This document shows, piece by piece, positions 14,820 to 29,536 of a DNA stretch of 31,043 nucleotides (positions within the stretch are counted from its first letter, which is position 1; the number at the start of each line of letters is the position of its first letter). The notes under the pieces are model-generated. The model did not search any database. It saw nothing but the letters and a program-made list of their open reading frames with translations, and was not told the DNA's origin. The position numbers were made by a program, and so were the translations under genes. Source of the stretch: Candidatus Micrarchaeum sp. (GTDB lineage: Archaea; SpSt-1190; DYHY01); NCBI GenBank assembly GCA_020723935.1, contig DYHY01000014.1, forward strand, positions 1 through 31,043. The letters are read 5' to 3'.

Positions 14820-17800
14820 ATGATTGGGAAAATTGTGCCAATTGCCGCCGTTTTCATTGCAATAGTTCTCCTTCCCGCCCTCGCCGCGCCCTCCTTCCCG
14901 ACGGAGAGCGAGTACGTCTGGTGCTTCGCGAGGACCGCGATGCCAGGGAAGCTTTCCGCAGACATCTCCGCGTCAGGCCTTGCGCAGGCGGACAAGAACG
15001 CGGCCGCGCTCCTCGCCCCCGCCGGATACCGCTCCCCCGCGATAGACGATCCGGCCTACGTGAAATACCTTGATGCGATCTTGCTGCTGGAGGGGGCGCA
15101 TTCATCCTGGAAGGCGGGCGTCGCGAAGGCGTCCCTGAGCGGCGACAGGTGGGCGCTCGTCTCGTCCCTGAATTCTGCGGTGGCATCCGTTGAGGGCTAC
15201 GGGGAGTCGGTAGCCGCCTCACGGCGCCTCGACGGGGCGATCCTCTCCTCGCTTGACGCCGCCGGCCTCCCGCGCCTCTCCGGGGAGCTGGGCGAATCTG
15301 AGGGGCTGACCGCCTCCGTCCTGAGGGCGCAGCTGTCGGATTCCGCGGCCCTGGATTCCCGCGCGGCGGACGCTCTCGGGCGGGTCGACGGGTTCCTCTC
15401 GTCGGCCGGGTCGTACTTCGCGCAGTTGCGCGATTTCGCCAGGGATTCCAACAGCTCGTACCTGTTCTCGAAGAACTGCACGCGCCTGGCGAACTGGTCG
15501 CTCTTCGAATGCTCTGCCGAAAGCTGGCTTGTCGTCAACATCGTGTGCGCATCGGACTTTGGCACCTGCGTGGATGCGACCGACTGTCAGGCGACGATCT
15601 CCCACAACCTCTCAAGGCTCAAGACGAGCCCGCCCAACTTCGCATCGTTCTGGTCGTCCGCGCGCGAGGTGTCCCCGCTCCCGGCGTCGTTTTCGCGCTA
15701 CAAGGCATACTCGGGATTCCTTTACAATGCGCGGGTCCTGGAGGCGAGGCTTGCCGGGGAGAAGGCCGCCCTTTCCGCCGGGCTTGACGCGCTCGCGCTG
15801 GACGCCCTCTCCGAGGAGCTTGGCGTCGTCGATCCGGATATCGTCCTAGACTTCCTTTCGTCTTCCCCTCCCTCGGCCGCGAAAGCCACTGGAAGGGCCG
15901 GCTTCCTCAACTTCTCCGCTTCGATCGCCGACGCCCAGGTGGCCTCCGCCGCCCCGTGGCGGGACGCAGAGTCCAGCTACTATTCCAGGATTTTGGGACT
16001 GAAGTCCGACATTTCCGCGCTCAAGGAAGCGCAAGACGAGATCCGCTCGACCCTTTCCCTCGCAGACGCGATAGAGGCCGGCATGGACTCGAGGCTCGCG
16101 CCGCAGAAGATCCTGGAATATTCGCGCCTCACCCGGGGGAGGCGCATCGCCGCCAAGGCGGCCGACCTCTCGCTTTCCGCCGAGGGCGACGAGATCTTCC
16201 TCGTGGCGACATCCCCGCCCTCCCGCTCCTTCCCGGAAAGCGTGCTGGGTGGCATCGCCAGGCGCGGAGAGGGGGTGTCCGTCCCGCAGGGCGCAGGGAG
16301 GTTCGAGATATTCTCGGCGCTGGAGGATCGGTATTCGGCTTCGGTGAACCTGAAGAGGCAGGAGATACTTGCCAGGCTTTCGGATCTCTCAGATTCGGAC
16401 CGGGCGAAATTCGCGGGATACGACTTCCTCGCCGGGCCCGACGGATGGGTCTCCCCCCGCACAGCCTGGGGTTTCATGTCCCTCCTGGACTCGGAATATT
16501 CCGGAATGCTTTCCCGGGCGAGGCAAGGGGATCCGTTCGTGTTCGCCCAGGCCGTCCTTGCGGCGCCCGTTGCGGCGGGGAAGCCGGCCTTCTACCGCGT
16601 TTTCGGGACGATAGCCAACGGCGGGCCGTCGGAAATAGTCTCCTCGCAGCGCATCGCCTTCCAGGCACCGGGCCTTCCCGCCGCAGGGGAAGGGAGGTTT
16701 TCCGTCGTCTGGTCGGAGGGCGGCGGGGCGCTGGATTCGCTCGCAAGCCTAGGCGGCGGGAGCGCGGAGGCGCGGGCGCGCATCGGCCCGTTCTCGTCCG
16801 TGCGCTTCGAGGCGGAAGGGGAATTCCCCTCCCCCGTCTCGTCGTCCGTCGCCTCGGATTTCGAGCGGGTCACGTCGGAGGAATATTCCCGCCAAATCTC
16901 CTCCAACATCGCCTGTTCCCCGGGGTTTTCCGGGGATATTGCGGTCCCCTTCGCCAACCGCCTCCCTTTAGATAGTCTCGTTGTCCAAGCCTCTTCGCCA
17001 GGGGGCCGCAGGGAGTTCCGCGTTTCCCCCGACGGCGCGATAACGGTAAGCGACACCTGCCAGGCCGGCCCGCATTCCCTGGACGTGTCGCTTTCCTATC
17101 CTAGGCCTGTCCTTCTTTCGTACGAGGAGACGCCCGCGGGGTATTTGGTCTTGGCGACGAACCGCCTTTCATTCCCCTTGGGCGGCCTGACTCTCGAGAT
17201 ACAGCTTCCGGAGAACGCTAGCAGGGTCTATATCGACGGGGCCAGGCTCTTCCCGCGCGCGGACTGGACGATTTCCGTGCCCCGAAGCCTCGGGCCCGGG
17301 GAGACGGAGCGCCTTGAAGTATCCTTCGAGCGCGGAGCCCGCGAGGCGTCGCCCCTTCCAGAGTGCGCTTTCTGCTGCGCCATCTCGGCCCGCTCGCTCG
17401 CGTGGCCAGAAGCGAAGGAGACGGAAGCAATGAGATACTTGCCCGAGCTCGTCTCAGCTGCATCGCTCCTTGCGGAGGACGAGCTTGCCCCCGTCTCTGC
17501 CCTCGCCTGCGCCGACGACTTTTACGGCGCACTCTCCCTTTCCAGGAAGATCGCCACCGACAGGCTGAAGCGGGACGGGGCGGCATGCGCGAACGCATCC
17601 TCTTCCGCCGTAAGCGCGAGAAGGCTCCTCGCGGTCCTCTCCGACGAGTCGGGCAAGCTAGCTGCGCTGAAAAGCAGGTTCCCCTCCTCGCCCTTCCGCC
17701 TGCCGCCCAACGTCTCGCCCGCCAAGCTGGACGTGCTGGAAGCCGAGAGGACGTGTAACGCCACCCTGATGGGCCGCGCGGAGGAGGCGCTAGCCTCCGT

Positions 17801-18383
17801 AAGGGACGAGACGAGATCGTCCCTTTCCGCCGCTGCCCGGTGGGCGTACGACTTCTTCGGCGCGAGCTATTCGGCGAACCTGTCCCTTCCCGCGAACGTG
17901 GGGGCCTCCGTCGAGGCGAAGGTCGGCGACGGATTCAGGAAGCGCGCCGAAAGCCTGGCGCAGGCGGGCGCGGGCCTTCCCGAGCCCTCCGACGAGACGA
18001 GCGAGCGGATAGTCGACGCAATCCTCGCAAACAAGGCGGACTTCTCGGCAAAAGCCCTCTCGTCGCTGGAATCGGAAGCCGGCGCGGCGGTCGCGGAAAG
18101 CTCAAGGCTGTCTTCCGGCCACCCCGAGGCGCAGTATTACTCGTCCCTGGGGAAGGAGTCGCTTTCGCAGAGGAGGCTCTTGGACGGATATTACGCCGCG
18201 CAGTATTCGCTGATACTCTCCGCCGGAAAGGCCGCCTCCGCAAGCTCGTCGCGCTCGATGGCGCTCAAGGCGCTAGCAGTGGCAATCTCCCTTGTGATGG
18301 TAGGCGCTGTCGTGTTCTACAAGGAGAGGAAGAACCGCGGCAGGCCCCCAAAAGAGGACAATTTCTTCGGCGAAGTCAGGTAG
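14820..18383 (+). CDS. Giant Ser/Ala-rich surface protein with signal peptide and C-terminal membrane anchor
   Basis: The 1187-residue protein has an N-terminal signal sequence (about 1-22, IVPIAAVFIAIVLLPALA). A very long extracellular part is rich in Ser, Ala and helix-forming stretches. The C-terminus has one membrane helix (about 1146-1166, LKALAVAISLVMVGAVVFY) followed by a short basic/acidic cytoplasmic tail. Many N-x-S/T sequons (NSS, NCT, NWS, NLS, NFS, NAS, NVS, NAT) and several paired cysteines fit an exported glycoprotein. Residues about 590-860 look beta-rich, between two helical arms. I recognise no catalytic motif and no known family. It follows two small anchored proteins and may work with them in a cell-surface structure; the two GT-C glycosyltransferases elsewhere in the window could modify it. 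Confidence 0.7.
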   Translation: MIGKIVPIAAVFIAIVLLPALAAPSFPTESEYVWCFARTAMPGKLSADISASGLAQADKNAAALLAPAGYRSPAIDDPAYVKYLDAILLLEGAHSSWKAGVAKASLSGDRWALVSSLNSAVASVEGYGESVAASRRLDGAILSSLDAAGLPRLSGELGESEGLTASVLRAQLSDSAALDSRAADALGRVDGFLSSAGSYFAQLRDFARDSNSSYLFSKNCTRLANWSLFECSAESWLVVNIVCASDFGTCVDATDCQATISHNLSRLKTSPPNFASFWSSAREVSPLPASFSRYKAYSGFLYNARVLEARLAGEKAALSAGLDALALDALSEELGVVDPDIVLDFLSSSPPSAAKATGRAGFLNFSASIADAQVASAAPWRDAESSYYSRILGLKSDISALKEAQDEIRSTLSLADAIEAGMDSRLAPQKILEYSRLTRGRRIAAKAADLSLSAEGDEIFLVATSPPSRSFPESVLGGIARRGEGVSVPQGAGRFEIFSALEDRYSASVNLKRQEILARLSDLSDSDRAKFAGYDFLAGPDGWVSPRTAWGFMSLLDSEYSGMLSRARQGDPFVFAQAVLAAPVAAGKPAFYRVFGTIANGGPSEIVSSQRIAFQAPGLPAAGEGRFSVVWSEGGGALDSLASLGGGSAEARARIGPFSSVRFEAEGEFPSPVSSSVASDFERVTSEEYSRQISSNIACSPGFSGDIAVPFANRLPLDSLVVQASSPGGRREFRVSPDGAITVSDTCQAGPHSLDVSLSYPRPVLLSYEETPAGYLVLATNRLSFPLGGLTLEIQLPENASRVYIDGARLFPRADWTISVPRSLGPGETERLEVSFERGAREASPLPECAFCCAISARSLAWPEAKETEAMRYLPELVSAASLLAEDELAPVSALACADDFYGALSLSRKIATDRLKRDGAACANASSSAVSARRLLAVLSDESGKLAALKSRFPSSPFRLPPNVSPAKLDVLEAERTCNATLMGRAEEALASVRDETRSSLSAAARWAYDFFGASYSANLSLPANVGASVEAKVGDGFRKRAESLAQAGAGLPEPSDETSERIVDAILANKADFSAKALSSLESEAGAAVAESSRLSSGHPEAQYYSSLGKESLSQRRLLDGYYAAQYSLILSAGKAASASSSRSMALKALAVAISLVMVGAVVFYKERKNRGRPPKEDNFFGEVR

Positions 18384-19614: not shown

Positions 19615-20475
19615 ATGTTGACACCCGAGGACGTGAAAATAACCCCTCAGAACATAGTAGCGTCGTGCAAGTTCAACGTCGACTTCCCACTCGAGAAAAT
19701 CGCAAAGGAGCTCGGGGCCGAATTCACTCCCGAGCAGTTCCCCGGCGCAATCTACCACATGAGCCAGGGGCACACCTTCCTCCTCTTCAAGAACGGGAAA
19801 GCCGTCCTCGCGGGCTGCAGGTCGGTAGAGCAGCTCGAGAGCGCCGCCCACGACCTGAGGCGCGACCTCAAGAAGATAGGCGTCATCATCCGCGAGTACA
19901 ACATCGAGGTTCAGAACATGGTCTTCTCCCTGGAAATGGGCGTGGACGTGGACCTGGAGAAGTTCGTGAAGAAGGTCTTGGACGCGTACTACTCTCCTGA
20001 GCTCTTCCCGGGCCTAACCTACAAGATCCACGACCCGAACGTGACGTTCCTTATCTTCTCCAGCGGCAAGTGTGTCCTCGCGGGCCTCAAGGACATCAGG
20101 GACCTTCGCAAGGCGATCGAGAAGCTCGTGACGACGGTCAACCGCTCCGGGGCCGCCCGCGACAAGGACGAGGAGACCAAGCGGCGCGAGGCGGAATCCT
20201 CAGCTGCGCAGGCGGGGAACGGGCGCCAGGAGATAAGGCTTGACCAGCCGATACCCGCGTCCATGGAATACCGTGCGATAATAGGCAAGCTCTCGGACGC
20301 CGACGAGCCGAAGGCGAAGCCCAAGGCGAAGCCGAAGGCGAAGCCCAAGTCCAAGCCCAAGGCGAAGGCCAAGCCCAAGCCCAAGGCTAAGCCGGCCGGG
20401 AAAAGCAAGGCCGCAGGCCCCAAGCGAAGGACGAAGCACAAGGCCGCGCCCAAGAAGAAAGGGAAGCGACGGTAA
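19615..20475 (+). CDS. tbp: TATA-box-binding protein with a long basic C-terminal tail
   Basis: General transcription factor that bends promoter DNA and recruits TFB. Two direct TBP repeats are present, about 9-90 and 98-175: QNIVASCKF/QNMVFSLEM, then FPGAIY/FPGLTY and LLFKNGKAVLAG/LIFSSGKCVLAG. The four DNA-kinking phenylalanines are F42, F58, F131 and F148. Archaeal TBPs normally end about there (180-200 residues). This one runs to 286. A charged linker (about 180-230) is followed by a tail of about 55 residues almost wholly Lys, Pro and Ala in KAKP-type repeats (232-286). The tail is in frame with no sign of assembly error, and the codons vary between units. It diverges from the permuted GTPase across a shared TATA box. 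Confidence 0.95.
   Translation: MLTPEDVKITPQNIVASCKFNVDFPLEKIAKELGAEFTPEQFPGAIYHMSQGHTFLLFKNGKAVLAGCRSVEQLESAAHDLRRDLKKIGVIIREYNIEVQNMVFSLEMGVDVDLEKFVKKVLDAYYSPELFPGLTYKIHDPNVTFLIFSSGKCVLAGLKDIRDLRKAIEKLVTTVNRSGAARDKDEETKRREAESSAAQAGNGRQEIRLDQPIPASMEYRAIIGKLSDADEPKAKPKAKPKAKPKSKPKAKAKPKPKAKPAGKSKAAGPKRRTKHKAAPKKKGKRR
20308..20397 (+). repeat. Low-complexity repeat encoding the KAKP tail of TBP
   Basis: Short units of the type AAGGCGAAGCCC repeat about ten times with small variations, giving Lys-Ala-Lys-Pro. Such DNA expands and contracts by slippage, so tail length may vary between strains. Confidence 0.8.
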
Positions 20476-20511: not shown

Positions 20512-20760
20512 ATGTCAGCGACAACCAGGAAGTCATACTATCAGGGCGCATCCCCAGCCTCCGAAGCCGACGACCTTCTCGCGCAGCTTGAGGTCAAGGC
20601 GGAGGCATCCCGCGCGGCGCACGCGGTCCTCGAGAACGAGCAGGCCGAATCGCGCGTCCTTTCCGCGCCCTCCGAGGACACGGACAGCTTCTCCGGCCTG
20701 GAAAAGCGCGAGGAGCGCGTTCTCTCGGGGAAACGCCCGCCGGTATTCTCTGACTTCTAG
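20512..20760 (+). CDS. Small acidic soluble protein, unknown
   Basis: The 82-residue, charged, probably largely helical or disordered protein has no cysteine and no membrane segment. The phrases RVLSAPSED and RVLSGKRPP form a loose internal echo in the second half. Not recognised. The TATA box at leaderless distance supports it as a real gene. It converges with larB, overlapping its stop by 4 bp. Confidence 0.55.
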   Translation: MSATTRKSYYQGASPASEADDLLAQLEVKAEASRAAHAVLENEQAESRVLSAPSEDTDSFSGLEKREERVLSGKRPPVFSDF

Positions 20761-21470
20761 GGCTCCGGCGCCTGGCCGACGATCGCCGCGGCAAGGCATG
20801 CCGCCCCGAAGCCGTTGTCAATGTTCACGACCGCAAGGCCCCCCGCGCACGAGTTGAGCATCGCGAGGAGCGCCGCGAGGCCGCCGAACGAAGCGCCGTA
20901 GCCGACGCTCGTCGGCAGGCCTATAACGGGCTTCCCCGTCATCCCGGCGACGACCGACGGGAGCGCGCCGTCCATTCCGGCGGCGACTATCACCGCCGCG
21001 AAGCGAACGTCCTTCAGCTTCCCCTCGCTTGCGAGGAGCCGGTGCAGCCCCGCGACGCCCACGTCTGCGACGGTCTCCGTCGCTATCCCGAAGCCGTCCT
21101 CCAGGGTCTCCTTCGCCTCGATTAGGACTGGGAGGTCGGCCGTCCCCGCGCTCATGAGGAGGACTTTCTTCCCGCCGCGCTCTCTCGCCCTTCCGAGGAC
21201 GAGCGTACCGGACAGCTTGTTGAACCTGAGCTTCTTCCTCCCTGCCTTGCGTCCGACCGCCTTCGCCTGGGCCCCGGACGCCCTCGTCCCTATGACGACG
21301 TGGCCGGCCGACGAGAGGACGCGAAATATCTCCGCCACCTGCGCGGGGCTCTTCCCCTCGCACAGGATGCCCTCGGGCATCCCGCGCCGCTCAAGCCTCC
21401 CGGTGTCAAGCTTCGCGAAGCCTATGTCGATGAAGCCCGCCCCGCCTCCCAGCCTCCTTGCGCGTGCCAT
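20757..21470 (-). CDS. larB: LarB, pyridinium-3,5-biscarboxylic acid mononucleotide synthase
   Basis: First step of nickel-pincer nucleotide (NPN) cofactor synthesis: carboxylates and hydrolyses nicotinate adenine dinucleotide. The PurE-like fold is clear from VIVAAGMDGALPSVVAGM, GLPTSVGYGASFGG and the C-terminal VVNIDNGFGAA, all typical of LarB. At 237 residues it has normal length. It begins 4 bp after larE on the same strand, and the two are surely cotranscribed. LarC (nickel insertion) and any LarA-type racemase are not in the window. Confidence 0.92.
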   Translation of the reverse strand: MARARRLGGGAGFIDIGFAKLDTGRLERRGMPEGILCEGKSPAQVAEIFRVLSSAGHVVIGTRASGAQAKAVGRKAGRKKLRFNKLSGTLVLGRARERGGKKVLLMSAGTADLPVLIEAKETLEDGFGIATETVADVGVAGLHRLLASEGKLKDVRFAAVIVAAGMDGALPSVVAGMTGKPVIGLPTSVGYGASFGGLAALLAMLNSCAGGLAVVNIDNGFGAACLAAAIVGQAPEP

Positions 21471-21474
21471 CCTC

Positions 21475-22254
21475 CTAGCAGCTCCTGAAATCCGTGAGCG
21501 CGAGGCCCACCCGCTTGAAGCCGATTTTCAGGAACCTGCGCTCGATCGAGGGCGAGCCCGAGACTATCCTTCCCATCTTGGCGCGCGGGACGACGATCGT
21601 CGCGGAGTCGTCCGCGTTGTATCTCACGCGCAGGGGCGTGCCCTCCCCGACGAGCGCGAGGAGGTAGTCCTCCGCGCGCTCCACCATCCCGAGCCGCTCG
21701 GATGTTATCGGCGTCCCCGGGGCGAAGCGCGAGGAAAGGCAGGGCGCCGCGGGCTTGTCCCAGTTGGGGAGGCCATACTCCCGCGCTAGCCTGCGCGTCG
21801 CGGCCTTCCCGATGCCGCAGGCCGCGAGGGGGCTCACCACCCCCGCCTCTGCGACGGCCCTCATCCCGGGCCTCGCGCCCGGGTCGTCGTCGGCGTTCGT
21901 GCCGTCCAGGATCCTCATATCCCCGGCCGCCGCCCTGACGCGCGAGAAGAGCTCGTCCTTGCAGAAATAGCACCTGTCGGCGGGGTTTTTCGCGTACGTC
22001 GGGTTCTCCAGCTCCAGGCAGTCCACGACGAGGACCTTCCCGCCGATCTCGCGCGCAAGCACCCTCGCCTGTCTCAGCTCCCTTCCGGCCAACGAAGGCG
22101 AGCGGCCGACGACGAGCGCGCAGTTCCTGCGCCCCAGCGTCCGCACCGCGGCGGCCGCGACGACGGAGCTGTCGACTCCGCCCGAGAAGGCCACCGCCGC
22201 CCTGCCGATGGGCCGGATGAAAGCCTCCAGCTCCTCCTGCGCGCGCCCCGCCAT
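21475..22254 (-). CDS. larE: LarE, sulfur transferase of nickel-pincer cofactor synthesis
   Basis: Converts the two carboxylates of the LarB product to thiocarboxylates after adenylylation. The PP-loop AFSGGVDSS occupies 22-30. Three cysteines are placed as in iron-sulfur LarE proteins: C95 and C98 in DRCYFCK, and C172 in AAPCLSSRF. Enzymes with only the last cysteine sacrifice its sulfur. The three-cysteine type holds a [4Fe-4S] cluster that carries an extra sulfur, so this one probably turns over repeatedly (inference from the motif). The 259 residues are near normal. A TATA-like box around 22286-22291 lies about 34 nt upstream of the ATG. Confidence 0.92.
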   Translation of the reverse strand: MAGRAQEELEAFIRPIGRAAVAFSGGVDSSVVAAAAVRTLGRRNCALVVGRSPSLAGRELRQARVLAREIGGKVLVVDCLELENPTYAKNPADRCYFCKDELFSRVRAAAGDMRILDGTNADDDPGARPGMRAVAEAGVVSPLAACGIGKAATRRLAREYGLPNWDKPAAPCLSSRFAPGTPITSERLGMVERAEDYLLALVGEGTPLRVRYNADDSATIVVPRAKMGRIVSGSPSIERRFLKIGFKRVGLALTDFRSC

Positions 22255-23068: not shown

Positions 23069-23077
23069 TTATTTAAC
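23069..23077 (-). promoter_or_regulatory. TATA box of the KaiC-like gene (leaderless)
   Basis: The minus-strand GTTAAATAA is centred 29 nt before the ATG at 23044 and overlaps the end of the upstream gene. Confidence 0.6.
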
Positions 23078-23984
23078 CCTTCCCCGGGAGGAGGCCCCTT
23101 CGCACGGGCTTTACAGGGAGGATGAGGAGGCCCATCCTCCTCCATTCCTGCTCCACTTTCCAGGCGTCGCCGGCGGATGCCGCGGCTGCCATGACGATGT
23201 CCCCTCCCCCCGCGCCCGGGCTCTTCGCGCAGAGGGCCCCCGAGGCGAGGGCGCGATCGACGGCCTTGCTCACGGACGGCGGGGATATCGCCGGATGGAG
23301 CTTCGCGGTGAGGCGCCACGCCTCCTGGAAAGCCTCTCCGAACCCGCTTGCGCATTTCCCCCGCCTGATGAACGATATGCACTCGCGGTTGATTGCGTCT
23401 ATCTCCGCCGCGCGCGCGGCAAAGCCGCGCCTCGCGGTCACCTTCCTCACTATCCCTGCGGTGTCGACGGGCTTTCCCGTGAACGCGAAGACGGTCTTGA
23501 GGCCTTGCGGGAAGGGCAGCGGGGAGATCCTTAGCGGCCTCCTCTTGTAGACGATGGGCCCGTAGACCGCGCAGGCGATGTCAAACCCGCTCCCAACCTT
23601 CTCCTGCGCAATGAAATGGGCCCTGCGCGCGAGCCGGAAGACGAGGCGCCTGTCCGCCGAGCCGCCCAGGAGGAACGAGACGCAGGCGACGGCGACCGCC
23701 GCCGAGGAGCCGAGGCCCGTCTTCCTCCCGCCGACGCGGAACGCCCCGTCCGCAGAGACGCGCATCGGGACATGCGACATATCGCGGCCAAGACGACCGC
23801 CGACGACCTCCCTGGCCGCCCGCGTGAACCTGCTCTCCGCGCCCCCGCCTCCCCCGGCCGCCGTCACGAAGGCGTCCACGGGGAAGACGTGCGCTATCGT
23901 CCCCTCCGAAAGTATGGAATAGCCCCCTATCCAGAGGACCTTGCCCGGCGCGCTGGAGCTAGCCCCGCACAATCCTTGGCCCAT
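23073..23984 (-). CDS. Phosphomevalonate kinase, ERG8-like GHMP kinase
   Basis: Phosphorylates 5-phosphomevalonate to 5-diphosphomevalonate. The 303-residue GHMP kinase begins APGKVLWIGGYSILSEG (12-28), a form typical of eukaryotic-type phosphomevalonate kinase. It has the ATP loop KTGLGSSAAVAVA (88-100) and the PMK-like segment KVGSGFDIACAVYG (129-142) with the putative catalytic Asp135. A C-terminal KSPGAGGGD loop follows. It overlaps the decarboxylase gene by 26 bp. Most archaea lack this enzyme and reach isopentenyl phosphate by other routes. Its presence beside a decarboxylase with intact active-site residues indicates the classical pathway. Another GHMP activity is possible but less likely given the context. 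Confidence 0.87.
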   Translation of the reverse strand: MGQGLCGASSSAPGKVLWIGGYSILSEGTIAHVFPVDAFVTAAGGGGGAESRFTRAAREVVGGRLGRDMSHVPMRVSADGAFRVGGRKTGLGSSAAVAVACVSFLLGGSADRRLVFRLARRAHFIAQEKVGSGFDIACAVYGPIVYKRRPLRISPLPFPQGLKTVFAFTGKPVDTAGIVRKVTARRGFAARAAEIDAINRECISFIRRGKCASGFGEAFQEAWRLTAKLHPAISPPSVSKAVDRALASGALCAKSPGAGGGDIVMAAAASAGDAWKVEQEWRRMGLLILPVKPVRRGLLPGKG

Positions 23985-24933
23985 CCCCCGCGCCGCACAC
24001 TAGCGCCCGCCTCACCTTCACGCCGCCCTCCTTCAAGGCCTTGATTATGCCGCCCGTCCTCCTCCTTGTGGTTATTATGTGGGGGTTGGGCCCCGCATCG
24101 AAGGTGTAGCCGCACACGGGCTCCCTGCCGTTGTTCACAAGCTCGTGTATAACGCATACAGCCTTCCTGCTCTCGTCGTTCATGTAGGAGATCGGGGGCC
24201 AGGTGTCCAGCATCACCGCGTGCATGTTGTTGCTCTCGCGCATCACGAGCGCGAACAGCGCCGGCGCGTCCCGCTCGATTATCGCCCGCCTGCATTCGGA
24301 GATCTTGGCGGCCATCCCCGCGACGCGCGCGCCGTATAGATCGCTCGTCGCGACCGTCTGGCGCATCCCGGCGCGCGAGGGCATCTTCTTCCTCGCGCCG
24401 TCCAGGACGATCGCGAGGTCCACGAGGCCCCTCCAGTGCCGGGCCGGGGCTATCTGCTCCGCATAAGAGTCCGACCCGTCCCGCCTCTTCCCGGCCCTCC
24501 ATTCGGCGAAGCCGCCGACGACGGACCTGCAGGCGGAGCCCGAGCCCTTCCTCGCGAGGACCGACAAATCCCTTCCCGAAAGCCTCAGGCCCGCCGCATC
24601 CGTCGCCGCGACGACGAGGGCCGCGAAGCCGCTTGCCGAGGAGGCAAGCCCCGCCGCCGGCGGGAAGTTGTTCCTGGAGACGATCCTTGCCTTCAGGCGC
24701 GCGATGCCCGCGCGCTCCCTTATCTCGCCTATCACGTCCGGGAACTCCCCCTTCCTGCCGTCCAGGACGAACGAATCCTCCGGAAACCCGCCGAAATCGA
24801 CAGTCGTCCTGCTCGCGAGGGTCTCGTCCAGGGTCATCGAGACGCTCCCGGCGACCGGCAGGTGCAGCCTCTCGTCGCGCTTGCCCCAGTATTTCACGAA
24901 CGCGATGTTGGGTGTCGCGACGCAGGTTGCCAT
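23959..24933 (-). CDS. mvaD: Diphosphomevalonate decarboxylase
   Basis: ATP-dependent decarboxylation of 5-diphosphomevalonate to isopentenyl diphosphate. The 324 residues carry the family hallmarks: ATPNIAFVKYWGKRDERLHL with Lys17 near 7-26, FPPAAGLASSASGFAAL (90-106), the phosphate-binding GSGSACRS (130-137) with Arg136, and YTFDAGPNP with the catalytic Asp279. Keeping both the Arg and the Asp argues for a true decarboxylase rather than the mevalonate-3-kinase relatives of Thermoplasma. The open frame continues upstream beyond 24933, but the ATG there directly precedes the conserved start and lies 2 bp after the mevalonate kinase TGA. It overlaps the next gene by 26 bp. Confidence 0.92.
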   Translation of the reverse strand: MATCVATPNIAFVKYWGKRDERLHLPVAGSVSMTLDETLASRTTVDFGGFPEDSFVLDGRKGEFPDVIGEIRERAGIARLKARIVSRNNFPPAAGLASSASGFAALVVAATDAAGLRLSGRDLSVLARKGSGSACRSVVGGFAEWRAGKRRDGSDSYAEQIAPARHWRGLVDLAIVLDGARKKMPSRAGMRQTVATSDLYGARVAGMAAKISECRRAIIERDAPALFALVMRESNNMHAVMLDTWPPISYMNDESRKAVCVIHELVNNGREPVCGYTFDAGPNPHIITTRRRTGGIIKALKEGGVKVRRALVCGAGDGPRIVRG

Positions 24934-24935
24934 GA

Positions 24936-25826
24936 TCACACTTTCCCGCCGAGGGCGACGTGCATCGCTTTTGAACCTTTCCCCGCGATCGCCGCGCCCA
25001 CCCTGCCCGTGTCCCCGCCTATTGCAAACATTATCCCGCCCCGCCCCCCACCCGAAAGCTTCGCGCCCAGCGCTCCGGCCTCCAGGGCCGCGGAGATTGC
25101 ATGGTCCAGCTTCCTGTGCGAGAGCCCGAGGGCCGAGAGGACCGCCTGGTTCTCGTTGACTAGGGCTGAGAGGCGCGCGACGTCCCCTCCGCGCAGGGAC
25201 CGCGCCATCCCGCCGACAAGCCTCCCGATCCTTGCGAAGCTCCCCTTGACGAAGCCGGGCCGTCTTCTCATCAGCTCCGGGATGTGCCTTCCTACCGTGA
25301 AGGCCGTCGGCGCCCGGATTCCCGTGTACCCGACGACGACCTTCAGGGGCTTGGCGCCGATTTTCCTCCATGCAAGGCCCCTTCCCGTCCGCCTGACGAT
25401 GTGAAAGCCCCCGAAGATGCTGCTCACGAGCTCCGCGCCGCTCGCCTTGCCGCCGTGGATCCCCGCTTGGTAGGGGAGAAGAAGGTCGAACAGCTTCCGC
25501 CCGTCCGCCCCCTGCCCGAGGACGGAGCGGGCCATCGAGACGAGGACCGCGGTGGACGAGCTCATCCCGGATTCGGGAGGGACGCCGGAGCGCACGGTTA
25601 TCCTCAGGCCCCTGCCGCCCGAAAGCCTTCTGGCAAGGTCAAGGGGGATCTCAAGCTCGGGAGCGCCGCGGGGATATGCCTCTGAGACGACCTCTACCTT
25701 TCCTCCGGAAAGCCGCCGCGCGAAAGCCCGGCAGCCCAAGCTCGTCGAAGCTATGAGCGCGGGCCTGCCGTAGACCACGGCGTGCTCGCCCGCGAAGAAG
25801 ACGTTTCCCGGAGCGTGCGCCATCAT
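24936..25826 (-). CDS. mvk: Mevalonate kinase (GHMP kinase) with altered active-site motif
   Basis: Phosphorylates mevalonate at C5. The 296-residue protein starts HAPGNVFFAGEHAVVYGRPA (4-23), the classic mevalonate kinase opening. It has the ATP loop PPESGMSSSTAV (83-94), IHGGKASGAE (123-132), GYTGIRAPT (167-175) and KLSGGGRGG (257-265). Two points are unusual. The ATP loop reads ESGMSSS rather than GAGLGSS. The position of the catalytic aspartate in the usual PSGxD motif is Glu132 (SGAE, codon GAG). The gene lies between the DUF35 gene (6-bp gap) and mvaD. The pathway context strongly suggests mevalonate as substrate. Confidence 0.87.
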   Translation of the reverse strand: MMAHAPGNVFFAGEHAVVYGRPALIASTSLGCRAFARRLSGGKVEVVSEAYPRGAPELEIPLDLARRLSGGRGLRITVRSGVPPESGMSSSTAVLVSMARSVLGQGADGRKLFDLLLPYQAGIHGGKASGAELVSSIFGGFHIVRRTGRGLAWRKIGAKPLKVVVGYTGIRAPTAFTVGRHIPELMRRRPGFVKGSFARIGRLVGGMARSLRGGDVARLSALVNENQAVLSALGLSHRKLDHAISAALEAGALGAKLSGGGRGGIMFAIGGDTGRVGAAIAGKGSKAMHVALGGKV

Positions 25827-25832
25827 CCGCGC

Positions 25833-26126
25833 TCAGCCCCCGGGAAGAAGAAGGGCCCACTTGCTCCCGTATTCTATCGGGGGGCCCCTCGTTATTATCC
25901 TGCAGACGGGAACGACCCGATCCCCTATCCTGGGCGCGGCGCCCCCCGACGGGAGGACTATTTCCGAGATTATCTTCTCCTTGCCCGGGAGCTCTATGAT
26001 CGCGATCGTCTTCCCTCCATCCCCGTCGTCCGAGCGCACGGTCGTGAACGAGAAGATCCTCCCCTCGTCCCTCGCGTCCGCCCTCTTCGCCTTCTCCGAC
26101 CTCCTCCAGGCCGCCGGAGCCCTCAT
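25833..26126 (-). CDS. DUF35 OB-fold protein lacking the zinc ribbon
   Basis: In archaea a DUF35 protein bridges acetoacetyl-CoA thiolase and HMG-CoA synthase and channels the intermediate. Here the OB-fold is clear (GRIFSFTTVRS, IAIIELPG, RIGDRVVPVCR, PPIEYGSKW). The N-terminal rubredoxin-like zinc ribbon with two CxxC pairs is absent: the only cysteine is in VPVCR. The protein is 97 residues against about 130 usually. The ATG at 26126 overlaps the thiolase TGA by 4 bp (ATGA). A longer frame upstream lies inside the thiolase gene and is not used. Order thiolase-DUF35 in one operon matches the known complex. Confidence 0.82.
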   Translation of the reverse strand: MRAPAAWRRSEKAKRADARDEGRIFSFTTVRSDDGDGGKTIAIIELPGKEKIISEIVLPSGGAAPRIGDRVVPVCRIITRGPPIEYGSKWALLLPGG

Positions 26127-27283
26127 TTCCTCCCGACCTCCCCGGAAAGTATCCCGATGACCGCGGTCGCCCCGCTCCCGCCGACGTTGTGCGTGAGCGC
26201 CGTGCGCGCCCCCTTCACCTGCCTCTTCCCGGCCCGGCCCGAAAGCTGCAGGAAGCATTCGGCGAACTGCGACACCCCCGTCGCCCCGACGGGATGGCCC
26301 TTCGCCTTGAGGCCTCCGGACGGGTTCACGGGGACGCTTCCGGAAAGGGCCGTCTCGCCGCGCTCGGTCGCTTTCGCGGCCCCGCCCCTGGGGAAGAAGC
26401 CGACGTCCTCGAGAGCCATTATCTCCGCTATCGTGAAGCAGTCGTGCACTTCAGCTAGGTCTATTCCCGAAAGCTTCGCGCCTGATTTTTCCAGCGCCAG
26501 CTTCGCCGCGGACGCGGCGGCGGGTATCCCGCATATCGTCGTCCTTGCGCACAGGCCCAGCGGTCCGGAAGCCTGCTCGCAGGCCAGGATTTCGGCGGGG
26601 TTTTCGGAAAGCCCCCTCGCAACGCCTTCCTCCGCAATGATTATCGCGGCGGCCCCGTCGGAGACGGGCGAGCAGTCCAGGACCTTGAGCGGGTCGGAGA
26701 CTGGCGGGCTCCTCATGACGTCGTCGACGGAGACAGTCCTCCTGAAATGCGCCTTGTCGTTGAGGCAGGCGTTCGAATGGTTCTTCGCGGAGACCGCGGC
26801 AAGCTGCTCCTCCGTCGTCCCGAACTCGTGCATGTGCCTCCTCGCCATGAGGGCGTAGAGGGCGGGGAAGGTCGCTCCGGTCCTCGCCTCGTCCTCGGCA
26901 AGCGAGGCCTGGGAGAGGATCCTTGAAGCCTCGTCGGGGGGGACGTCGGTCATCTTCTCCAGGCCCACAACCGCTACGACGTCGTGTTCGCCGCTCCTCA
27001 CCGAGAGGAAGGCCTGCCTGACCGCGGCGCCCCCCGACGCACACGCGGCCTCAAGGCGCACCGACGGGACGCTCCCGCTGCCTATTGCCGAGAGGACGAG
27101 GGGGCCGAGGTGCTCCTGCTCCGTGAACGCGCCCGAAGCCATAGAGGAGACGAAGAGGGAGTCTATCTTTCCCCTGAAGCCGGCGTCCTGCCACGCTTCC
27201 TTGGCTAGCTCCGCCTGGCCCGCCTCCCACCTCTCGCCGAAGCGCGAGCTCCCGGCCGCGACGACGAAGACGCGCCTAGGCAT
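26123..27283 (-). CDS. Acetyl-CoA C-acetyltransferase (archaeal thiolase)
   Basis: Condenses two acetyl-CoA to acetoacetyl-CoA, the first step of the mevalonate pathway. The 386 residues carry the thiolase catalytic set: Cys81 in EAACASGG, the EVHDCFTIAE segment near 285, GLKAKGHPVGATG near 336, and HNVGGSG near the end. The EVHDCF form is that of archaeal SCP2-type thiolases that pair with HMG-CoA synthase and DUF35. It starts 6 bp after the HMG-CoA synthase stop and overlaps the DUF35 gene by 4 bp. Confidence 0.93.
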   Translation of the reverse strand: MPRRVFVVAAGSSRFGERWEAGQAELAKEAWQDAGFRGKIDSLFVSSMASGAFTEQEHLGPLVLSAIGSGSVPSVRLEAACASGGAAVRQAFLSVRSGEHDVVAVVGLEKMTDVPPDEASRILSQASLAEDEARTGATFPALYALMARRHMHEFGTTEEQLAAVSAKNHSNACLNDKAHFRRTVSVDDVMRSPPVSDPLKVLDCSPVSDGAAAIIIAEEGVARGLSENPAEILACEQASGPLGLCARTTICGIPAAASAAKLALEKSGAKLSGIDLAEVHDCFTIAEIMALEDVGFFPRGGAAKATERGETALSGSVPVNPSGGLKAKGHPVGATGVSQFAECFLQLSGRAGKRQVKGARTALTHNVGGSGATAVIGILSGEVGRK

Positions 27284-27289
27284 GTGCCC

Positions 27290-28330
27290 TCAGAATCCTC
27301 CTTCTCCCCCGCGGGGGAGCTTGCCGCGCATCACAAGGTATCTCGCGTAATCCACGTCGGCCGGCGCGCCCTCGACCGCCCTGCCCCCACCATCCTTCCT
27401 CACAGTGATCGCGAACGCGTCGCTCCCCGCCCCGCTCCCGTAGGAGACTGCGAGGATGCGCTCGCCCCTTTTCGCGACGTCCAGGGTGCGGGAGATGCCG
27501 AGCAGCGTGTTCGCGCTGTAGACGTTCCCGATCGTGCGCACGAACAGGCCCGCCGAAAGCTTCTCGCGCGGGAAGCCGAGGGCCTCGGCCGCCTTGATCG
27601 GGAAGACGCCGTTTGGCTGGTGGAAGACGACGTGCGCGAAATCAGCCGGCTTTGAGCCGTCCGCCTCCATGAGCGCGCGCGCCGCCGAGACGACGTGCCT
27701 GAAATACGACGGGTCGCCCGTGAACCTTCCCGTGTGCGTCGGGTATTTCTCGCGCTGGGACCGCCAGAAGTCGGGCGTATCAGTGGAATGCGAGAGGACG
27801 GAGTTGATCGTCGCGATCGGGTCGCCCTTCCCGATGATCAGGGCCGCCGCCCCGCAGGCGCTCATGTATTCGAGCGCGTCCCCCGGAGCGCCCTGCGCGC
27901 AGTCCGAGCCTATCGCGATGCCCGCGTCCACCATCCCGGTCTTCGCGAGGGCGAGGCACGCGATGGCGGCGGTCGTCCCCGCCTTGCAGGCGAACTCGAG
28001 GTCCGCCGAGAAATGCCGCGGCGGGAGGCCGAGGATGCCAGCTATCATCTCGGAGGTCGGCTTCACGGCGTACGCTTTGGATTCGCTCCCGAAGAAGATC
28101 GCGCCGATCCTTCCCGCTGGTATCTCGGACCTCCCGAGGGCGAGCCTCCCCGCCTCCGCGCCCATCGTCGTGGAATCCTCGTCGGCCTGCGCGACAGCCT
28201 TGCTCTCGACGCCCATGACGGACGCGGAGGGCGCCCCCTTCCAGACGCGAGATATCTCCGCGGCCCTGATCCTGAAGCCCGGAACGTAGAACCCATGGCC
28301 GCAAATCCCTATCTCGGACATTGGCTGCAT
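27290..28330 (-). CDS. Hydroxymethylglutaryl-CoA synthase
   Basis: Joins acetoacetyl-CoA and acetyl-CoA to HMG-CoA. Numbering from the ATG at 28330 (346 residues), the catalytic triad is Glu83 in FGSESKAYAVKP, Cys115 in FACKAGT and His237 in VVFHQPNG. DEDSTTMGAEAG near 50-61 is a hallmark of the archaeal group. The start is chosen because ATG 28330 overlaps the HMG-CoA reductase stop as TGATG, a coupling arrangement; an ATG at 28321 is the alternative. A longer open frame to 28453 lies within the reductase gene and is spurious. Confidence 0.94.
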   Translation of the reverse strand: MQPMSEIGICGHGFYVPGFRIRAAEISRVWKGAPSASVMGVESKAVAQADEDSTTMGAEAGRLALGRSEIPAGRIGAIFFGSESKAYAVKPTSEMIAGILGLPPRHFSADLEFACKAGTTAAIACLALAKTGMVDAGIAIGSDCAQGAPGDALEYMSACGAAALIIGKGDPIATINSVLSHSTDTPDFWRSQREKYPTHTGRFTGDPSYFRHVVSAARALMEADGSKPADFAHVVFHQPNGVFPIKAAEALGFPREKLSAGLFVRTIGNVYSANTLLGISRTLDVAKRGERILAVSYGSGAGSDAFAITVRKDGGGRAVEGAPADVDYARYLVMRGKLPRGGEGGF

Positions 28331-29505
28331 CACGCCCTGTTCTTGCGCGCCGGGGGGCATGCCTTGCGCGCGTACAGCTTCATATGGCCCTTCTGTATCC
28401 CCTCGGTCGCGAGGACCCGCAGGGCGGCGAGGTTCTGCGCGAGGCCCACGCACGCCGCAGTTTCCGAGAGCTCCGCGGAGCTTGCAACACCCATGATCTT
28501 GAGCGCGGCCATCGCGGAGGGGTTGGCTGAGATGGATTTCCCGATAGTCGCGAGGGGCAACGGAAGGCTGGCCTCACCGTACAGGTCCCCCACATCGTCC
28601 TTCCAGTATTTCGTGAGCGGCATATACCTCCCCGAGATCGCCGCGAAGGCGTGGGCGCCTGCTTCCACCGCGCGCCAGTCGTTCCCGGTAGCGAGGGCCA
28701 CCGCGTCTATCCCGTTCATTATCCCTTTGTTGTGCGTCGCGGCGCGGAACGGGTCGTAGAGGGCGAACTCGTAGACGTCCAGGATCGCGTCGACTATCTC
28801 CTCGGCCGAGCCCTTCGCCTCGCCGTGGAAGCTTTCGAGGAGCGCCTCCTTCCTCCAGACCGCCGATGCGGTGCAGAGCCTCTCGACGGCGAGGTTGGAG
28901 ACTATCCGCGAGCGCACGCGCCCGCCGGAGATGTCTTGGACGAGGGGCGCTATCCGCTCGACCATCGAGTTCACGGAATTGGCGCCCATGGAATCGAGGA
29001 CGTCCACCAGCAGGTGGACGACGACATGGCCGTTCTCCAGGACCCGCACCTGCGCATCCTTCGCCCCGCCGCCCAGCTTCACTATCGTGCTTTCCCTGCA
29101 GTTGGCTTCGGAAAGGAGCCGGTCCTTCGCCTTCAGGAGGTCGCGGGCGGCGTTCCTCCCCGCGCCCACGACCTGGACCTGGCCTATCATGACCGAGCCC
29201 GAGCTCTTGGCCCGGAAGCCCTCCGGCAGGGCGAGCTTGGCGCCGTTGCTCGCCGCAGCTATCACGCTGCATTCCTCAATCGCCATCGGGACGAGGCGCT
29301 CCTTCCCGTTCACGACGAAGTTCGTCGCGACGCCGAGGGGGACGGGCGTGACCCCGAGGAGGTTCTCTACCATGCAGTCGGCGGCCTTGACGAACCTGTC
29401 GGGCCGAAGGAGCACCTCCTCCTCGCGCTTGGTGAGGCCCGCGCGCTTCCTGACTATCCGCAGCCTCTCCTGGAAGCTTTTCTTGTGGAAACAGGGGATT
29501 GTCAC
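28330..29505 (-). CDS. HMG-CoA reductase, class II (bacterial type)
   Basis: Reduces HMG-CoA to mevalonate. The 391 residues match the class II form: NLLGVTPVPLGVATNF (48-63), VPMAIEECSVIAAAS (72-86), DSMGANSVNSM (171-181), THNKGIMNGIDAVA (257-270) with Lys260, GNDWRA (274-279) with Asp276, and the C-terminal GIQKGHM with His374. The lysine, aspartate and histidine are spaced exactly as in the Pseudomonas mevalonii enzyme. Class I enzymes, usual in archaea, read differently around the first two motifs. The start is a GTG at 29505, placed 27 nt after a TATA box. It is the promoter-proximal gene of the seven-gene operon, so pathway flux control at this step is plausible. Confidence 0.94.
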   Translation of the reverse strand: MTIPCFHKKSFQERLRIVRKRAGLTKREEEVLLRPDRFVKAADCMVENLLGVTPVPLGVATNFVVNGKERLVPMAIEECSVIAAASNGAKLALPEGFRAKSSGSVMIGQVQVVGAGRNAARDLLKAKDRLLSEANCRESTIVKLGGGAKDAQVRVLENGHVVVHLLVDVLDSMGANSVNSMVERIAPLVQDISGGRVRSRIVSNLAVERLCTASAVWRKEALLESFHGEAKGSAEEIVDAILDVYEFALYDPFRAATHNKGIMNGIDAVALATGNDWRAVEAGAHAFAAISGRYMPLTKYWKDDVGDLYGEASLPLPLATIGKSISANPSAMAALKIMGVASSAELSETAACVGLAQNLAALRVLATEGIQKGHMKLYARKACPPARKNRA

Positions 29506-29526: not shown

Positions 29527-29536
29527 GCTATAAATG
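29527..29536 (-). promoter_or_regulatory. TATA box of the mevalonate operon (leaderless GTG start)
   Basis: The minus-strand CATTTATAGC is centred about 27 nt before the GTG at 29505. All downstream genes to phosphomevalonate kinase are spaced 6 bp or less or overlap, so this box probably drives the whole pathway. Confidence 0.65.

Follow-up and report, generated by a model that had tools for sequence, protein, structure and literature searches.

Seven consecutive archaeal genes predicted to encode a classical mevalonate pathway, with a Glu-type mevalonate kinase-like enzyme

Seven consecutive genes on the archaeal contig DYHY01000014.1 appear to form an operon for a mevalonate pathway of the classical, eukaryote-like type. 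The whole contig (C14; 31,043 nt), referred to below as the window, is part of an assembly of 1.14 Mb that is 91% complete. We consider it likely, with a probability of roughly 0.87, that the operon provides a working isoprenoid pathway for the precursors of membrane lipids, in which the classical route replaces the one through AcnX, UbiD and isopentenyl phosphate kinase (IPK) that is found in G001, a genome of the same family and the nearest relative among those compared. A preliminary description of the window had also proposed the classical route, naming phosphomevalonate dehydratase and IPK as the genes whose presence would speak against it; no match to AcnX, UbiD or IPK was found in the genome.

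Genes were named by scanning predicted proteins with Pfam and NCBIfam profiles against curated cut-offs (Table 1). Open reading frames and family scans bear out the seven consecutive genes of the preliminary description. They lie on the minus strand and are separated, in the order of the operon, by -1, +6, -4, +6, +2 and -26 nt, which agrees with the gaps of 6 bp or less, or overlaps, described before; the thiolase and DUF35 genes overlap by ATGA, and the last two genes by 26 nt. The 3-hydroxy-3-methylglutaryl-CoA (HMG-CoA) reductase (HMGR), HMG-CoA synthase (HMGS), thiolase and diphosphomevalonate decarboxylase (MDD) all exceed the cut-offs of their families. A single leaderless promoter had been proposed for the operon, and the TTTATA hexamer ahead of the HMGR gene makes such a promoter probable: AT-rich hexamers are scarce in the window, whose GC content is 64%, many of them are found about 30 nt ahead of predicted starts, and the spacing of 29 nt between TTTATA and the GTG codon fits this pattern. 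Co-transcription of the seven genes is predicted from their spacing. A KaiC-like gene begins 28 nt after the last gene of the operon on the same strand, and could be carried on the same transcript.

Table 1. Predicted genes and promoter element of the mevalonate operon
Feature	Position in the window	Strand	Basis
TATA-like box TTTATA	29529..29534	-	sequence; 29 nt ahead of HMGR GTG
HMG-CoA reductase, class II, 391 aa, GTG start	28330..29505	-	TIGR00532 368.9 bits (cut-off 260); structures 6dio, 1qax
HMG-CoA synthase, archaeal type, 346 aa	27290..28330	-	TIGR00748 395.8 bits (cut-off 353); 6esq_I E 2.2e-100
Acetoacetyl-CoA thiolase, SCP2-like archaeal type, 386 aa	26123..27283	-	NF004720 464.9 bits (cut-off 420); 6esq_A, 7yvy
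DUF35 scaffold protein, 97 aa	25833..26126	-	PF01796 19.7 bits (cut-off 27.1); Foldseek 5m3k_B, 6esq_G
Mevalonate kinase-like GHMP kinase, 296 aa	24936..25826	-	TIGR00549 133.7-135.5 bits (cut-off 163)
Diphosphomevalonate decarboxylase, 324 aa	23959..24933	-	TIGR01240 255.4 bits (cut-off 171); 4z7c, 5gmd E 3e-69
Phosphomevalonate kinase, archaeal/ERG8 GHMP type, 303 aa	23073..23984	-	NF040957 144.5 bits (cut-off 500)

The route was read from the presence and absence of diagnostic genes, the absences resting on family profile searches of the incomplete assembly. The genome encodes both phosphomevalonate kinase (PMK) and MDD, the pair that marks the classical route, PMK being recognized by its residues, fold and position in the tree despite a score below its cut-off. 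AcnX and a UbiD-type decarboxylase, which mark the archaea-type (anhydromevalonate phosphate) route, had no match in the genome. The same was true of IPK, the mark of the haloarchaea-type route: the only gene of the amino acid kinase family was rejected as an IPK, since it is an archaeal UMP kinase by TIGR02076 (178.6 bits, cut-off 158, versus 33.9 bits for the IPK model NF040647). The preliminary description had left isopentenyl diphosphate (IPP) isomerase to a search of the complete genome, and a gene for IDI-2 was located outside the operon (G000:C20:43486-44472; 352 bits, cut-off 281); a polyprenyl synthase gene is also present elsewhere in the genome. That the genome encodes the classical route is, as a prediction from these genes, well supported.

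A comparison across archaea gave a matching picture. In the 61 archaeal genomes searched for both proteins, AcnX exceeded its cut-off in none of the seven genomes with MDD over cut-off and in 38 of the 54 others (Fisher p = 5.6e-4, by a statistic that ignores relatedness). In G001, AcnX adjoins a UbiD-family decarboxylase, IPK adjoins UbiX, and HMGR falls on the class I side of the tree. Because AcnX, UbiD, UbiX and IPK are found in G001, while AcnX, UbiD and IPK are missing from the genome that contains the window, two genera of one archaeal family are predicted to differ in their mevalonate route.

The assignment of the decarboxylase is supported by its residues as well as by its score. In the alignment, it has Lys14, Lys18, Arg136, Ser186-Arg187 and Asp279, and retains the Ser-Arg-x-x-Met stretch; of the Lys17, Arg136 and Asp279 listed in the preliminary description, the last two stand, while position 17 is Gly and the lysines are those at 14 and 18. 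The protein also resembles solved diphosphomevalonate decarboxylase structures (Table 1). PMK is shortened (303 aa versus a median near 369), and keeps all 14 positions that are invariant in an alignment of 19 sequences. It had been described as an ERG8-type kinase; ERG8 is indeed among its families, but ranks second, after 'Arch_PMK'. Its structural model (predicted local distance difference test score, pLDDT, 91.5) retrieved the bacterial PMKs 3k17 and 3gon as top Foldseek matches, PMK structures from S. pneumoniae being among the highest ranks. Mevalonate kinases followed closely, and the fold alone therefore cannot settle the substrate.

The three GHMP proteins of the operon belong to families that also have members in other routes, and the decarboxylase matches the phosphomevalonate decarboxylase (PMD) model NF040704 with 124 bits. 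The decarboxylase and kinases might thus run a haloarchaea-type route, with phosphomevalonate decarboxylase and IPK, or a Thermoplasma-type route, with mevalonate 3-kinase. We regard this as very improbable: the genome has no IPK, the PMD score is far from its cut-off of 475 and the mevalonate-3-kinase score is 33, compared with 255 bits, over cut-off, for TIGR01240, and the only MDD-family gene in the genome has a PMK gene beside it.

Several observations weigh against a working classical pathway. At 91% completeness, the absences listed above are not proof, yet three genes of different function would all need to be missing from the assembly. The scores of the mevalonate kinase (MK)-like protein, PMK and DUF35 are all under curated cut-offs. 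The MK-like enzyme is without the catalytic Asp of its family, at which site it has Glu, and without the partner Lys, which is replaced by Asn.

The substitutions in the MK-like protein are at sites central to catalysis. Glu132 occupies the position of the catalytic Asp of the (S)G-x-D motif, which is Asp in 85 of 92 aligned sequences, and Asn8 is found where most aligned sequences have Lys. This Lys and the catalytic Asp are in contact in canonical MK, and in the human enzyme replacement of the Asp with Ala or Asn costs more than 40,000-fold in kcat (PMC6283576). TIGR00549 is the best family of the protein, though its cut-off is not reached. These properties, together with the ability of DPANN-type archaea to take lipids from hosts (PMC8975820), speak for a reading in which the protein is not a mevalonate kinase, the operon is only partly functional, and mevalonate or phosphomevalonate comes from a host or from another enzyme. 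The genomic evidence makes this improbable. Only the MK-like protein and the operon PMK match TIGR00549 in the genome, leaving the MK-like gene as the sole MK candidate, and it is located within the mevalonate operon, between the DUF35 and MDD genes, in the slot that canonical MK occupies elsewhere. Its closest relative (support 100), the kinase L170:7420-8445, has both substitutions and scores 181 bits with TIGR00549, over the cut-off; other TIGR00549 matches in that genome are only PMK and MDD, and the remaining pathway genes are at the locus of this kinase. Glu, moreover, retains the carboxylate.

Since the Glu-type protein is the sole candidate in both genomes, it must be the mevalonate kinase if the pathway works, and we predict it to be a mevalonate 5-kinase. 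On balance, we lean towards an undescribed branch of MK, with Asp to Glu and Lys to Asn changes (APGN...GMSSST...HGGKASGxE), that would be the sole mevalonate 5-kinase of at least two archaea, those of the window and of L170. In the window, it would act within a trimmed enzyme set that includes a DUF35 protein without zinc ribbon and a class II HMGR whose flap is reduced to one helix. Glu is found as well in a second kinase of G001 (L118:5523-6512), encoded next to IDI-2, in which the Lys position is occupied by Thr. Separately, MK-annotated kinases of two genomes of family f19 (L022 and L091, from G025 and G086) depart from the canonical active site in another way, with Gln in place of Lys and with Gly where the catalytic Asp would be.

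Besides PMK, HMGR and the DUF35 protein are trimmed. HMGR is assigned to class II by its TIGR00532 score, and only 19 residues separate its GHM motif from the C terminus, versus at least 45 in nearly all other proteins with a locatable class II motif. The three-helix C-terminal flap described for class II enzymes (PMC10070635) is not present in the window HMGR; about the first flap helix is left, and the resulting one-helix tail resembles that of class I enzymes. In the DUF35 protein, the four-Cys N-terminal zinc ribbon, kept by the other archaeal DUF35 proteins in the alignment, is wholly missing. The protein had no match in the Protein Data Bank by sequence, and its identity was settled by a structural model (pLDDT 78) with an OB fold matching chains E-G of 6ESQ (Foldseek E about 5e-4, TMq 0.57-0.58). 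The known complex, in which thiolase and HMGS are joined by DUF35 (PMC12329534, PMC6996347), is represented by 6ESQ and 6ET9 from Methanothermococcus thermolithotrophicus. The thiolase and HMGS of the window are homologous to those of the complex, from which the window DUF35 differs by the lack of the ribbon. Two Patescibacteria DUF35 proteins encoded beside HMGS and thiolase (L146:3162-3482 and L188:7725-8045) are also without the zinc ribbon. In G001, DUF35 is in frame with HMGS in a 542-aa open frame (L270:3506-5134, minus strand), a possible natural fusion of the two.

Taken together, the predicted activities would form a continuous pathway. Thiolase and HMGS, probably bound by the DUF35 protein, would convert acetyl-CoA to HMG-CoA, which class II HMGR would reduce to mevalonate. 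Two phosphorylations, by the MK-like enzyme and by PMK, would then yield 5-diphosphomevalonate, which MDD would decarboxylate to IPP. Outside the operon, IDI-2 would convert IPP to dimethylallyl diphosphate (DMAPP), and polyprenyl synthase would carry out the extension for lipids.

MDD exceeded its cut-off in 12 of the 150 archaeal genomes searched. The Diapherotrites metagenome-assembled genome (MAG) Meg22_1416_Bin_183 (L139) has these seven genes on one strand in an identical order, and G028 and G049, of two other archaeal families, share that order and strand apart from inserted genes. The latter two differ from the window in having a NUDIX-type IDI-like gene between the MDD and PMK genes and unrelated genes between those for DUF35 and MK; their MK has the canonical Asp, and their MDD and PMK are phylogenetically distinct from those of the window. 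In three Micrarchaeota loci (L126, L127 and L130), all seven genes are within about 10 kb. These loci have the MDD and PMK closest to those of the window by tree, with genes for class II HMGR, HMGS, thiolase and DUF35 nearby, but the genes are in divergent groups, not in one operon, and DUF35 has its zinc ribbon. Partial clusters occur in Woesearchaeota and Patescibacteria MAGs. Another Micrarchaeota MAG has two MDD-family genes in tandem (L135:9965 and 11104, plus strand). The classic pathway has been reported in some DPANN archaea, in Sulfolobales and in Asgard archaea, with genes that tend to cluster (PMC11052028). As in those archaea, PMK and MDD are present in the window genome, AcnX, UbiD and IPK are absent from its assembly, and the genes are clustered; the window differs in its near-contiguous HMGR-to-PMK operon, in having an IDI of the IDI-2 type that is located outside the cluster, and in the shortening of several enzymes. 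Given these loci and the published DPANN pathway, the view of the preliminary description that the operon is unusual for an archaeon is too strong, and we conclude that it adds a further case, with some oddly trimmed enzymes, to a known kind of arrangement.

The origin of the gene set was addressed with trees that contain no eukaryotic rows and in which several window rows are on long branches, both of which limit how origin can be read from them. MDD is placed among 19 archaeal rows, mostly Micrarchaeota (support 100/99), and PMK, on a long branch, within a Micrarchaeota-type clade (100/100). The best MDD matches in a scan of named genomes, which may not include the window genome itself, were likewise from Micrarchaeota; they reflect the gene and not necessarily its host. 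HMGR belongs to a DPANN-rich class II group (90), the MK-like protein joins only L170 (100), a lineage other than that of MDD and PMK, HMGS is weakly grouped with a Woesearchaeota MAG (91), and the thiolase, also weakly, with G003, a genome of the same class, and family f16 (87).

Transfer of the operon as a block, one of two readings suggested in the preliminary description, is not supported by this pattern. Mevalonate clusters are common in bacteria, in a different gene order, and a single lateral transfer of the operon from a bacterial or eukaryotic donor could be envisaged. We find such a transfer barely credible: approximately unbiased (AU) tests reject the grouping of MDD with bacteria (p 6.6e-6) and that of PMK with bacteria (p 7e-4), HMGR does not belong to the bacterial group of class II enzymes (99), and HMGS and thiolase are of archaeal types in the trees available. 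A less remote alternative, though still an unlikely one, is that the operon came as a block from a DPANN archaeon, for example a member of the Micrarchaeota or a Diapherotrites-like one. The gene order equals that of L139 and, apart from insertions, that of G028 and G049, and MDD and PMK are both in the Micrarchaeota-type clade. However, grouping with the lineages of matching gene order is rejected for MDD (Diapherotrites-like rows, p 7e-7) and for PMK (p 8e-4), the Micrarchaeota loci examined have another arrangement, MK joins L170, and thiolase leans towards a genome of the same class, with several window rows on long branches. The set is thus best read as a mosaic rather than a bacterial or eukaryotic block. 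As the gene order matches one set of lineages and the diagnostic proteins another, either an old DPANN order would have been kept with gene-by-gene replacement, or the operon would have been assembled piecemeal. The direction of the switch between routes is an inference.

Archaeal information genes for TATA-binding protein (TBP), an IF2/aIF5B-type factor and L7Ae are located on the same contig, and a chimeric contig was rejected on this basis. The TBP gene (19615-20475, plus strand) encodes a long Lys/Pro/Ala-rich C-terminal tail with PKAKPKAK... repeats that recalls histone H1-like tails; to our knowledge, such a tail is not typical of archaeal TBP. Adjacent genes at 20757-22254 (minus strand) are AIR-carboxylase-like and NAD-synthase-like by Pfam, and presumably resemble the LarB-LarE pair for the nickel-pincer cofactor. 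An open reading frame of 1187 aa (14820-18383, plus strand) shows strong codon periodicity and matches no Pfam family.

The window operon adds to the archaea in which compact classical operons are found. Its MK-like enzyme offers a test of how the mechanism of GHMP kinases copes with Glu at the site of the catalytic Asp, and its DUF35 protein and HMGR a test of which parts of DUF35 and of the HMGR flap are dispensable. G001 and the genome of the window, with predicted archaea-type and classical routes, respectively, provide a natural comparison for why archaea swap one route for the other.

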